A stretch of DNA of 64,000 bases from positions 88,554-152,553 of the forward strand of contig CADBZH010000001.1 of the NCBI GenBank assembly GCA_902799045.1, given 5' to 3'. Position 1 is the first letter of the stretch, and every line of letters begins with the position of its first letter. This DNA comes from an uncultured Eubacteriales bacterium. GTDB lineage: Bacteria; Bacillota; Clostridia; Christensenellales; Aristaeellaceae. The notes beneath the pieces were generated by a model. That model saw only the letters and a program-made list of their open reading frames with translations. It did no database searches and was not told the origin of the DNA. This document shows positions 53,902 to 58,909 of this stretch, piece by piece. The position numbers and the translations under genes were made by a program.

Positions 53902-55215
53902 TTATTCCGCCGCGACGGTGGCGACATCGGTGCCCATCACCTTCTGGACGTCGGCCCAGACCTGGCGCATGCGCGCGGCATCGGCGTAGGCCATGCCCTC
54001 CGGCTCGGTGTCCAGCCACTGGCCCACGGCCAGGGTGTGATAGTCATACTTGCCGTCCTCGGTCTCGGCGCGCCACACGAAGGTGGGGATGTAGACGGGG
54101 CTGGTGATGATGAACTTGCCGTATTCCTCCGTCTCCTGGATGGTGAACTGGAAGATCACGCCGTTGTCATACTGGCCGTACTGGTCGGACAGGAAGTTGC
54201 CCGTCGCGCCCAGGCACAGCGTGCGGCGCACGTTGCCGTCGGCATCCTTGTTTTCCAGCCACATCGCGGGCTGTACCACGTGCGGGTTGTAGCCGATGAT
54301 CACGTCCACGCCCCACTCGGCCAGCTTCTTGGCGATCTGCACCTCGGTCTCGGTGGGGCTCTGCTTCAGCATCTCGCCCCAGCTGCAATAGGCCACGATC
54401 ACGTCGGCGCCGGCGGCGCGGGCGTTCTCGATATCCTTCTTCGCGTTGGACTTGGAGATCAGGTTCACGCCGTATTCGGTCGCGGCGGGATCGGCGTTCT
54501 TCTCGTTGCCGTTCAGGCTCTCGGTGTAGGCCAGGAAGGCCACGTTGATGCCGTTCAGCTCCCGAATGACGGGGGTGGAGCGCTCCTCGGCGGAGGCCGC
54601 CGCGCCCACATAGTCCATGCCCTCGCTCTGGCAGTTGGCCACCGTTGCCTGCAGCTCGGCCCAGCCGCCGTCCAGGGCGTGGTCGTTCGCCAGCATCAGC
54701 ATGTCGACGCCGCAATCCTTCAGCGCGCCGATCAGCGCGGGCGGTGTCACCATCTTGGTGGTGCCGGAATACTCGGTGGTGCCGCCGAGGGTGCCCTCGA
54801 CGTCGGCCACGGTGTAGTCCGCGTCGCCGATGACGTCGGCGATTTCAGAGAACATGCCGCTGAAATCGAAGGTATTTTCGCTCACGGCGGCGCGCAGCAG
54901 GTTCTGCTGCATGGCGATCTCGCCCAGCGAGCGAATGGTGGCGCTGCGGGGCTCGGGCTGCGGCGTGGGCGTGGGCACCGGCGTGGGCGTGGGCGCCGGC
55001 GTGGCCTCCAGGCCGCCTTCCGCGCCGTCAGTCGCGACGGGCGCGTCCGGGATCACGCTGGAAACCGTGGCGTCCGGACTGCCGCCGAACGGATGGAACA
55101 CCACCAGCACGATCGCCGCAATGAGGATCACCAGCAGCGCGGCCAGCACCGCGATGCCCAGCGGCGTGATGCGATAATTCCCGATACGAATGCCTTTTGC
55201 GGGTTTGTTGGACAT
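53902..55215 (-). CDS. CapA-like (poly-gamma-glutamate synthesis) metallophosphatase-fold protein
   Basis: 437 residues. A basic N-terminus, one membrane helix (about 20-42: ITPLGIAVLAALLVILIAAI), a Pro/Thr-rich linker (TPAPTPTPVPTPT) and an extracellular CapA domain. Domain motifs seen are YTVADVEGTLGG, LMLANDHALDGG and IIGYNPHVVQP. In CapA proteins the usual first motif is GDxxx; here it reads LGEIAMQQ. It may take part in polymer export or wall modification; poly-gamma-glutamate itself is not implied, since no capBC are present. GGAGGG precedes the ATG at 55215. Divergent from the Cys/His-module gene. Confidence 0.85.
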   Translation of the reverse strand: MSNKPAKGIRIGNYRITPLGIAVLAALLVILIAAIVLVVFHPFGGSPDATVSSVIPDAPVATDGAEGGLEATPAPTPTPVPTPTPQPEPRSATIRSLGEIAMQQNLLRAAVSENTFDFSGMFSEIADVIGDADYTVADVEGTLGGTTEYSGTTKMVTPPALIGALKDCGVDMLMLANDHALDGGWAELQATVANCQSEGMDYVGAAASAEERSTPVIRELNGINVAFLAYTESLNGNEKNADPAATEYGVNLISKSNAKKDIENARAAGADVIVAYCSWGEMLKQSPTETEVQIAKKLAEWGVDVIIGYNPHVVQPAMWLENKDADGNVRRTLCLGATGNFLSDQYGQYDNGVIFQFTIQETEEYGKFIITSPVYIPTFVWRAETEDGKYDYHTLAVGQWLDTEPEGMAYADAARMRQVWADVQKVMGTDVATVAAE

Positions 55216-55277
55216 ATTGCTTCCCTCCATGGATCTGCCTCGCGCACAGGCGCAAGGCTCCACTTCTTAATATCGGT

Positions 55278-55411: not shown

Positions 55412-55440
55412 TTGACAGCTTGGCACATATGATGTATGCT
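55412..55440 (+). promoter_or_regulatory. Promoter of the 13-module Cys/His protein
   Basis: Perfect TTGACA (55412-55417), 17 bp, TATGCT (55435-55440). The leader to the chosen start is about 88 nt. Confidence 0.7.
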
Positions 55441-55534: not shown

Positions 55535-58500
55535 ATGGCGACACACGCTTTGGGAAATTTGAAATTCAATCTGTCGGACAAGGGCTTAGCCTGGCGGATG
55601 GGGGATGGGAAGGTCCATCGCCTGTTCGGCGGCAAGCAGGCCCCGGCGGATGATGAATATGTGGAGAGCATCGATCCTGATGGCGAGGAAGGCTACCAGG
55701 ACGCTTACGATGCCCAGGATTCCGATTATTCGGACGATTATGAATATGAGGATCACGCCGACGACGGCTACGACGCTGACGGCTATGACGACGACGGCTA
55801 CGGCGAGGACGACGGCTACGACGATCCCGGCTACGACGACGGCGATTATGACGACGATCGCTATGACGACGATGACGGATATGTCAACGACGGCTACGAC
55901 GACGGGTATGACAGCGACGAAGGCTATGACGACGAAGGCTATGACGATCGCTATTCCGACGTGGACGCCGACGATTACCAGGAGGACGCCTACGACGACG
56001 AGCAGGGCGGCCTGATGCGCTATGTGGACGAGAATGACTGGGTCACGTACCTGCTGCTTTTCCTGTTCCCGCCGCTGGGCATCTACCTGCTCTGGCGCAG
56101 GAACCGCCTCGAGAAGCCCGTGCGCTGGGGCCTGACCGCCGCGTCCGCCATCTGGTTCGTGGTGGCGCTGATCCTGCTGCTGCGCGGCCTGTTCGGCGGC
56201 ACCGGCGACGCGCAGACCCAGCCCAACATCACCATCCCGCCGGTCCAGGTGGAGGTCACCGCCGCGCCGGTCGCGGACGACGTCACCTCCATCGACCTCG
56301 GCGGCGACACCCAGACGGACGATACCGTGGATACGGTCGATACCTCCGACACGGCCGACACCGGCGATACCGCCACGGACTTCGGCGGCCTGACCGGCGC
56401 CGATACCGACGTGGAGCCCACGGCCACGCCGCTGGCCTCCAGCGCCAACGGCTCCAACGCCAACACCGCCAGCTACGTCTGGAGTCCGGCCTCCGGCCTC
56501 TACTACCACTCCACCAACACCTGCCCCTCCATCGAGGACGGCGTGCAGGTCTGGCAGGTCACCAAGGAGATCGCGGAGAACAGCCGCCACCAGTCGCCCT
56601 GCCCGGATTGCATCGGCGGCGGCACCACCACCACCTATTATGCCAGGCCGGACGGCAAGTACTATCACTCCGACCAGACCTGCAGCAACATGAAGAACGC
56701 CCAGATCTACACGCTGGAGGCGGCGCAGAACGAGGGCAAGGAAGCCTGTCCGGTCTGCGTGCTGAAGACCCAGACCAGCCTTGATCCGGCCACCAATGCC
56801 GGCGTGCAGTTCGTCAGCTCCGGCACCACCGACAAGAGCGGCATCGAGGTCTACGCCACCAAGGGCGGCGAGCACTTCCATGTGAAGAGCGACTGCTCCG
56901 GCATGCAGGGAGCCAGCAAGGGCTCGCTGAAGGACGCGCTGCTGGCGGGCAAGACGGCCTGCCCGAAGTGCTGCCCGACGGCGGGGAACAAGGTGTACTG
57001 CCGCTCCGACAGCAAGAGCTATCACGTGGACCCGAACTGCCAGGGCATGAAGAACGCCAAGCAGATCACGCTGGCGGAGGCCATGGTGCTCGGCAAGGAG
57101 AAGTGCGACGTCTGCATCGGCAGCGCCAGCGCCTCGATCTCGGAGAACGCGTCCGGCGCGGAGAGCGGCAAGACCGTGTCCCTCACCAGCGCCACCGGCG
57201 ACAAGGTGAAGGTCTACGCCACCCAGAACGGCACCTACTACCACACCAACAGCGTCTGCTCCGGCATGAAGGACGCCCAGCTCTACACGCTGAAGGCCAT
57301 GCTCCAGGCCGGCAAGAAGGCCTGTCCCACCTGCGCCTCCGCGGCGAACACCAAGGTCTACGCGGCCAAGGGCGGCAAGTACTACCACTCCTACGCCACC
57401 TGCTCCGACATGACGAACGCCACCAGCGGCACGCTGGCCGAGGCGCTGGCGGCGGGGCTGAAGCGCTGCACGAAGTGCTGGGACAAGTCCGGCAACGCCG
57501 TGAAGGCCTCCACCCAGACGGCCTCCGCCAAGACCGGCAGCTCAGCCACCGCGACCAGCGCGTCCGCCTCTTCCTCCGCATCAGGCAGCCAGACGGCCAC
57601 CACCGCCAAGCAGCAGAAGGCCACCACGGCGGCCAGCAAGGCCACCGCGAGCAACACCTACGTCTACGCCACGAAGGACGGACACTATTATCACCTGAGC
57701 AGCAGCTGCGGCGGCATGACCGGCGCCAGCCGCGTGACGCTGAAGAAGGCCATCAACGCCGGCAAGACCGCCTGCCCGATATGCGCCTCCACGGCCAATC
57801 GCACGGTCTATTCCACGTCGAAGGGCGATCACTATCACGCGGCGAGCGTGTGCGTGCCCTCCGGCATGAAGAACGGCACCAAGCGCAAGCTCTCCGAGGC
57901 GCTGATGCTGGGCCAGACGGCCTGCCCCCACTGCCTGAGCAGCAAGAAGGCGGCCCAGACCGCCCAGAAGACCGCCGAGGCGGTGCAGGAAGCCGTGCAG
58001 ACCGCCGTGCGCACCGGCACCAACTACAAGTCCGGCAAGTCCGGCGTGCGGGTGTACGCCAGCCTGACCGGGAAGTATTATCACACCAAGAGCAACTGTC
58101 CGAACCTGTCCGGCACTGCCAACCGCGTGTCGTTGGAGACGGCCCTGAACTACGGCAAGGCCGCCTGCCCGGAGTGCGCTTCCACGGCCACGCGCACGGT
58201 GTACGCCACCCGGGGCGGCAAGTATTATCACGCCAGCAAGGCCTGCGCCGGCACCGGCGCCCGGAAGGGGACGCTGGCCTCGGCCCTCGCCTACGGGCTG
58301 GACCCCTGCCCGAACTGCGTGACCCACACCGCGACGGTCACCTCCTCCGGCCTCTACCAGAGCGGCACCTCCGGCATCAAGGTCTACGCCACGGCGGGCA
58401 GCAAGTACTACCACGCCAACAGCACCTGCTCCGGCCTCACCGGCGCAAGCCGCGTGTCCCTGGAGACGGCGCTGAACTATGGCAAGAAGGCCTGCCCGGT

Positions 58501-58909
58501 CTGCCTGGCCGCGGCCAACCACAAGGTCTACGCGGTGCCCGGCGGCGATTACTACCACGCCTACAAGGCCCACGCCGGGTCCGGCGCCATCGCCGGCACG
58601 CTGGCCACGGCCCGCGCCATCGGCCTGAAGGCCTGCCCCACGTGCGCCAAGGCGCTGGCGGGCCAGTTGAATCCGGACAACGGCGGCGAACCGGACGCGC
58701 CGGTCTCCACGGAGTACTATCCGGGCCTGCCGGATTCCAGCGTCTACATCGACATCGGCAGCGCCAACAGCTACTATCACCTCGGCGCGAAGTGCTCCCA
58801 GGCGAAGTTCTCCGGCGGCACGAAGGTGACGTTGAAGTACGCCATCGACTGGGACTACAAGGCCTGTCCCTATTGCAACCCGCCGACCAGCGTCTATACC
58901 GGCACCTGA
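55535..58909 (+). CDS. Membrane-anchored protein with 13 tandem Cys/His modules, function unknown
   Basis: 1124 residues. Residues ~1-168 are an acidic tail packed with Asp and Tyr (GYDDDGYGEDDGYDD type). Two hydrophobic helices follow (about 169-188 and 199-222) with a basic loop RRNRLEKPVR between, then a Thr/Asp linker. From about residue 310 to the end come 13 modules of roughly 45-50 residues with the pattern VYAxxxGxYYHxxxxCxGMxxAxxxTLxxAxxxGKxACPxC. One His and three Cys per module suggest zinc binding, like the single C-terminal modules on some nucleases and MBL-fold proteins. In module 12 the first Cys is His. By the positive-inside rule the modules are outside the cell. The start follows AAGGTGG. 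The gene stands alone, divergent from the CapA-like gene. Confidence 0.85.
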   Translation: MATHALGNLKFNLSDKGLAWRMGDGKVHRLFGGKQAPADDEYVESIDPDGEEGYQDAYDAQDSDYSDDYEYEDHADDGYDADGYDDDGYGEDDGYDDPGYDDGDYDDDRYDDDDGYVNDGYDDGYDSDEGYDDEGYDDRYSDVDADDYQEDAYDDEQGGLMRYVDENDWVTYLLLFLFPPLGIYLLWRRNRLEKPVRWGLTAASAIWFVVALILLLRGLFGGTGDAQTQPNITIPPVQVEVTAAPVADDVTSIDLGGDTQTDDTVDTVDTSDTADTGDTATDFGGLTGADTDVEPTATPLASSANGSNANTASYVWSPASGLYYHSTNTCPSIEDGVQVWQVTKEIAENSRHQSPCPDCIGGGTTTTYYARPDGKYYHSDQTCSNMKNAQIYTLEAAQNEGKEACPVCVLKTQTSLDPATNAGVQFVSSGTTDKSGIEVYATKGGEHFHVKSDCSGMQGASKGSLKDALLAGKTACPKCCPTAGNKVYCRSDSKSYHVDPNCQGMKNAKQITLAEAMVLGKEKCDVCIGSASASISENASGAESGKTVSLTSATGDKVKVYATQNGTYYHTNSVCSGMKDAQLYTLKAMLQAGKKACPTCASAANTKVYAAKGGKYYHSYATCSDMTNATSGTLAEALAAGLKRCTKCWDKSGNAVKASTQTASAKTGSSATATSASASSSASGSQTATTAKQQKATTAASKATASNTYVYATKDGHYYHLSSSCGGMTGASRVTLKKAINAGKTACPICASTANRTVYSTSKGDHYHAASVCVPSGMKNGTKRKLSEALMLGQTACPHCLSSKKAAQTAQKTAEAVQEAVQTAVRTGTNYKSGKSGVRVYASLTGKYYHTKSNCPNLSGTANRVSLETALNYGKAACPECASTATRTVYATRGGKYYHASKACAGTGARKGTLASALAYGLDPCPNCVTHTATVTSSGLYQSGTSGIKVYATAGSKYYHANSTCSGLTGASRVSLETALNYGKKACPVCLAAANHKVYAVPGGDYYHAYKAHAGSGAIAGTLATARAIGLKACPTCAKALAGQLNPDNGGEPDAPVSTEYYPGLPDSSVYIDIGSANSYYHLGAKCSQAKFSGGTKVTLKYAIDWDYKACPYCNPPTSVYTGT
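56487..58885 (+). repeat. Thirteen tandem module-coding repeats
   Basis: Each unit codes YYH or a variant (HFH, SYH, HYH), then Cys 5 residues later, then a TLxxA helix, then CPxC. Most modules come in close pairs joined by a short AxxN/T linker, with longer Ser/Thr/Ala linkers after modules 2, 4, 6, 8, 10 and 12, so the array may have grown by duplicating a two-module unit. The linkers differ in length and sequence, which argues against very recent duplication. Confidence 0.85.

Follow-up and report, generated by a model that had tools for sequence, protein, structure and literature searches.

An array of thirteen putative Ada-like zinc modules on a predicted membrane-anchored protein of Aristaeellaceae

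Introduction

What purpose could thirteen copies of a small Cys/His module serve on a single membrane protein? The question is raised by gene P0001 (55535..58909, + strand), identified from the open reading frame list, its translation and its relatives, which encodes a protein of 1124 residues in a 64,000-nucleotide stretch of contig CADBZH010000001.1 from an uncultured Eubacteriales bacterium of the family Aristaeellaceae (this whole stretch is referred to as the window). The array module looks like a variant of a known fold, the Ada zinc domain, and the array protein can be read, with a probability of about one in two, as a flexible membrane-anchored surface tether made of zinc-stabilised doublets that would bind an extracellular polymer. 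The literature searches made, judged by title and the start of the abstract, yielded nothing on this module or array, the only hit for the Ada family PF02805 being in domain coevolution work.

Modules, metal ligands and pairing

Each module is about 46 residues long and reads roughly VYAT..G.YYH-x4-C-SGM..A...TL..A...G..ACP-x-C. The original prediction had placed thirteen such modules on the protein and all of them exist, the pattern occurring 13 times after residue 230, whereas 2000 shuffled sequences average 0.02 occurrences and never exceed 2. The YYH-x4-C signature it gave holds only in part: His followed by the four-residue spacer is found in 13/13 modules, but the first Cys is kept in only 12 and YYH in only 10, the remaining three reading HFH, SYH and HYH. 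Module 12 carries His in place of the first Cys (H1008-x4-H1013), and this His is also kept in two relatives (L070 and L071). The spacer from the first Cys to the CxxC is 20–25 residues long, and the ligand positions take up 38 of the 40 Cys of the array protein.

Among 256 modules from 21 proteins, a tally built from every CxxC and hence excluding modules that lack one, the residue five places after the His is Cys 223 times, His 24 times, Asp 4 times and Phe and Asn once each, with no His found in 3 modules. Because Cys, His and Asp exchange there in 251 of the 256, the position behaves like a metal ligand and, as had been proposed, the modules look like zinc sites by their ligand pattern; that the metal is zinc is what we infer from this pattern. 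Disulfide repeats were rejected on the odd number of Cys together with the Cys/His/Asp exchange, and three Cys with one His are a misfit for them.

The gaps from one CxxC to the next His alternate between 17–18 and 31–71 residues, so that the close pairing and two-module unit suspected earlier are evident as six doublets and one terminal single module. Odd-numbered modules 3, 5, 7, 9 and 11 resemble one another with a mean score of 128, even-numbered modules 4, 6, 8, 10 and 12 with 89, and the score across the two sets is 91. By reading, 15 of the 21 array proteins keep the alternation (15–21 residues inside pairs); the exceptions are L058, L060, L063, L064, L065 and L067. A tandem-repeat finder picked up the acidic region and short arrays in the DNA but no repeat of module length, so the modules look old rather than the product of recent DNA duplication.

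Relation to the Ada zinc domain

P0001 has no match to any Pfam family at E≤10, PF02805 (Ada_Zn_binding) is absent from the families matched by 25 single modules tested one by one, and the best PF02805 score for a module of a paralogue in the same genome is 10.3 bits, below the curated cut-off of 23. Homology emerges through intermediates, in a computed profile chain that runs from the array modules to single copies of the module at the C-termini of other clostridial proteins (single tags, of types A and B) and from these to the Ada domain. The profile of array modules (A1) matches that of single tags (A3) at 99.1%, type B tags match the E. coli Ada structure 1ADN at 7.5e-8 and many of them score over the Pfam cut-off for PF02805, while direct comparison of array modules with the family gives 41%. 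A type B tag in the window's own genome (L018) scores 18.8 bits, under that cut-off.

The structure predicted for the doublet of modules 5 and 6 has the fold of the Ada N-terminal domain. Ada and zinc ribbons had both been named for comparison, and Ada proved the right relative by profiles and predicted fold; no zinc-ribbon relative appeared in domain, PDB or structure comparisons, and Pfam offered no match to a zinc ribbon or other known domain. An NCBIfam YidC match (E 2.7) and PDB matches (E≥0.016 and E≥0.78) for the array look like chance. A four-module model is poor (pLDDT, the predicted local distance difference test score, 67; pTM, the predicted template modelling score, 0.33; 3 sequences), its residues 94–111 lie below pLDDT 50 and the arrangement of doublets is not readable from it; the linker between doublets is predicted to be flexible.

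The site is not the four-Cys site with a methyl-acceptor Cys, since the first ligand is His in A1, A3 and A4 and Cys in the five Ada rows. In A1 the His is there by construction, its rows having been chosen by a pattern that requires it (which excluded the degenerate first module of L013, with no H-x4-[CH]), and it is shown directly by the 13 window modules. A3 omits L086, L092 and L095 and A4 omits L118, L120, L122, L125 and L128, of which L125 has lost the CxxC and L118 has no clear H-x3-C, so positions termed invariant are invariant in the rows kept. In two single tags, L120 and L128, H-x2-C replaces CxxC, another exchange of ligand type.

Distribution of arrays and single modules

The genome sets are samples, and figures per genome refer to the candidate matches listed. 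In the host's family, modules were found in 122 of 150 genomes, and 45 genomes from 18 of 50 genera have at least 7 matches (our own count), which may be spread over several proteins. Across the order, matches came from 47 of 297 genomes. Of these, 33 lie outside the host's family: 29 with a single match, three with two, and G304 with seven, spread over separate frames. At the level of class, 54 of 291 genomes match, and outside the family no genome has more than 3 matches. Among the genomes sampled, only the host's family yielded proteins with at least three modules, and two modules in one protein outside it were seen once, as the doublet of L152. Named relatives of the array protein are limited to two uncultured Clostridiales RUG isolates.

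Of 20 array loci examined, 13 have 13 modules and the other 7 have 8–16; some of the loci are at contig ends. Compared with the window, the module order agrees at 13/13 in L050 and L053 and 12/13 in L059, and is recognisable at 4–9 of 13 positions in six 13-module proteins of other genera; judged from these sequences, the array appears to be maintained over its relatives in both module number and recognisable order.

A whole-protein search of the window's own genome revealed further module proteins on contigs C48 (5 modules), C2 (2), C3 (3 and one degenerate), C19 (1) and C43 (1). The five-module paralogue on C48, a second array protein, shares the acidic-hairpin layout and adjoins a lipoprotein with metallo-β-lactamase (MBL) and lamin-tail domains (L131, 1217-2728 and 3229-4479). 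In another paralogue (L132, 5469-7232) the first module has Arg in the place of the Cys with a His adjacent (GFHRGPTRHGM), perhaps a shifted or lost site.

Single copies had been described as C-terminal tags on thermonuclease-like, MBL-fold and competence-related proteins, and tags on MBL/competence-like and nuclease proteins were found. The 48 single-module proteins scanned (those with extractable frames; L086, L092, L093 and L127 excluded) were drawn with our own profiles, so that the shares are rough, and matches were taken at E≤0.001. They carry Ada_Zn_binding (24), Lactamase_B (18), Endonuclea_NS_2 (6), Cu_amine_oxidN1 (3), Trypsin_2 (1) and PG_binding_1 (1), and 18 match the ComEC_Rec2 model; the ComEC_Rec2 scores of L119 and L110 are below a cut-off that was set for the whole protein. 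By regular expression, 22 of 45 single-module proteins have a lipobox, 15 another hydrophobic N-terminus and 8 neither; as most have one or the other, the module would usually lie outside the cell.

Layout of the gene and protein

All features of the array gene lie on the + strand. The start ATG at 55535 is preceded by AAGGTGG and the MAT start is common to 14 of 20 orthologues; the longer mechanical reading frame from 55436 is not needed as the start. A sigma-70-like promoter, TTGACA-17-TATGCT, lies upstream at 55412..55440 (consensus match only).

The protein begins with a conserved segment of about 33 residues (MATHxxGxLKFxxSxxG...GDGxxHRL, 55535..55633), recognised from orthologue N-termini and possibly a decayed DUF4236, followed by an acidic D/Y/G-rich region (55640..56029), the 170-residue N-tail having a net charge of −55. 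One of nine N-termini matches DUF4236 (PF14020), at E 0.12 and below the cut-off, a profile comparison with a single sequence gives 75.6% over 21 columns, and among 26 matches listed for 31 relatives none falls on the window's array gene. Another protein, L155, combines DUF4236, a PPxG hairpin, a charged coil and one module, a layout that is possibly ancestral to the array protein.

The membrane anchor proposed earlier fits a two-helix hairpin read from the sequence at residues ~168–222 (56036..56200), with FPPLGIYLLW, containing the PPLG motif, and the basic loop RRNRLEKPVR; the hairpin motif is present in 17 of 20 orthologues. After a linker of about 88 residues come modules 1 and 2, the first doublet (56468..56764), modules 3 and 4 (56840..57121), modules 5 and 6, the doublet modelled above (57203..57484), modules 7 and 8 (57653..57940), modules 9 and 10 (58043..58324) and modules 11 and 12 (58373..58651), all placed by module pattern and by spacing or predicted structure, and finally the single C-terminal module 13 (58739..58882), placed by pattern and spacing. 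Long antisense frames over the gene (55586-57388 and 57581-58780, − strand) are probably a by-product of base composition.

Neighbouring genes

Array neighbours other than capA were named by eye. The divergent neighbour at 53902..55263 (− strand) encodes a PGA_cap (CapA-like) protein by profile match (PF09587, 175.5 bits), separated from the array gene by a 271-bp gap that looks AT-rich. Inspection of genes near homologues, as had been recommended, revealed capA divergent to the array gene in 14 of 20 loci and linked in several genera; of the remaining six, three (L061, L063 and L067) end early on the capA side, and the stretch examined contains no match in L058, L060 and L064. mutY also accompanies the array in 12 of 20 loci, so the capA pairing may be plain synteny. 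Pro/Thr-rich linkers occur in CapA and in the module proteins L012 and L013 and were counted for surface exposure.

Proposed role and alternative explanations

In the nine proteins read, the hairpin has a basic loop (charge +2 to +4) preceded by an acidic or neutral segment (0 to −5), and by the positive-inside rule both ends of the protein would lie outside. The array is thus very probably exposed on the cell surface; the lack of a signal peptide and the weak DUF4236 likeness of the N-terminus weigh against such exposure. Each module would be a small Ada-like domain holding one zinc via one His and three Cys, with His or Asp able to replace the first Cys, and the zinc would be structural, closing domains too small to fold alone. 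Doublet partners would be joined by the fixed 17–18 residue step and the doublets would hang on the variable 31–71 residue stretches, the whole string lying behind the ~88-residue linker from the membrane hairpin. We infer that such a string would act by multivalency, through many weak contacts with a cell-surface or wall glycan, or with nucleic acid, and single copies may likewise be C-terminal targeting tags on secreted enzymes.

Capture of extracellular nucleic acid specifically, by modules that keep a DNA-binding tendency of Ada without its repair chemistry and feed module-tagged nucleases and ComEC-like MBL proteins, is unlikely, though several observations favour it. These are the Ada ancestry of the modules, the MBL, nonspecific endonuclease and ComEC_Rec2 matches among the single-module proteins, and the MBL and lamin-tail lipoprotein that adjoins the five-module paralogue both in the window's genome and in 4 of 5 loci examined from the same genus. 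According to a review (PMC10814553), methylation of the acceptor residue Cys38 converts Ada into a strong DNA binder; the main text of PMC4101490 mentions neither Cys38 nor Ada. A His ligand would be similarly unreactive. Against DNA capture, net module charge shows no conservation among ten orthologues, swinging from +70 (L067) through +34 in the window to −28 (L068), so that DNA binding by positive charge was rejected as a shared trait. The Arg-Pro that follows the first ligand of Ada (5/5 A5 rows) is gone, the array modules having mostly T, S, L, V or A after the His, and many tagged proteins have no link to nucleic acids.

A wider version of this scheme is distinctly unlikely: an exported, amplified Ada-type domain, with His fixing an unreactive DNA-binding-like state, would serve as a surface catcher of DNA or another polymer, supplying tagged nucleases and proteins of ComEC type, under the watch of anti-sigma factors that bear the module.

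A surface zinc buffer or sponge, with 13 sites per molecule for uptake or against toxicity, would suit the four ligand-type residues kept in all 13 window modules and the further module proteins of the genome. It is very unlikely, as spending 46 folded residues on each metal is uneconomical and single tags on enzymes do not suit storage; moreover, the window has no match to a Zur-box consensus when up to 3 mismatches are allowed, and inspection by eye of the genes listed next to the arrays read showed no zinc transporter.

Little chance, and slightly less than for zinc buffering, is given to envelope sensing, in which anti-sigma factors would sense their ligand through the modules and the large array would compete for or present that ligand. 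Two of the five own-genome paralogues (L012 and L014) lie directly after extracytoplasmic function (ECF) sigma genes, as do L143, a three-module protein of another genus, and L148, but none was noted next to the array gene itself, and the module is missing from other sigma/anti-sigma pairs (L055, L134). The ECF sigma genes stand directly before module-bearing anti-sigma-like proteins with a single transmembrane segment (L129 6161-6634 with L012 1120-2418; L130 6012-6482 and 4408-6015), and a match of L014 to DUF4179 stays under the cut-off.

An array in the cytoplasm, with both ends inside and binding zinc or nucleic acid there, is equally improbable, for although it would suit the missing signal peptide, the weak DUF4236 likeness of the N-terminus and the joining of DUF4236 to a similar hairpin and a single module in L155, it conflicts with the basic hairpin loop between acidic or neutral flanks and with the presence of such modules on lipoproteins and secreted enzymes. 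The surface tether of zinc-stabilised doublets stays the preferred reading.

Comparison with known systems

Lipoproteins with ComEC-type MBL domains often carry a single module, whereas the array protein has no trace of their enzyme domain in the Pfam scan. The single C-terminal tags of Clostridia share H-x3/4-C ... C-x2-C and G-x-x-x-C with the array modules, but occur as one copy per protein in nearly all those read, on lipoproteins and on MBL, nuclease or protease proteins. One tag, L114 (1501-1746), scores 33.6 bits against the NCBIfam sunset domain NF051437 (cut-off 27) and also weakly matches the NCBIfam Ada model (16.5 bits), which suggests that sunset and Ada_Zn_binding are relatives; P0001 itself has no match to NF051437 at E≤10 and so falls short of the cut-off, and other NCBIfam models give the sunset name to a domain of ribosomal proteins.

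The closest known system is the N-terminal domain of E. coli Ada (1ADN, 1U8B, 1ZGW, 1WPK), with which the array module shares ligand order, predicted fold and the profile chain. Ada has the methyl-acceptor Cys38 as its first ligand where the array module has His, and C-x3-C where the array module has H-x4-C; unlike the Ada domain, the array comprises 13 copies on a membrane protein without a Pfam match. The comparison gives a recognisable fold to a large membrane protein of a gut bacterium, with the reactive Cys replaced by His, and links it, together with a widespread secreted tag, to the Ada zinc domain. Since many of the sampled Clostridia have single tags on nucleases and ComEC-like proteins, the binding partner of one module would inform many unnamed proteins at once. 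Taken together, the likenesses and differences suggest that a DNA-repair fold, deprived of its chemistry by the change from Cys to His, was exported from the cell and amplified within a single family of gut bacteria.
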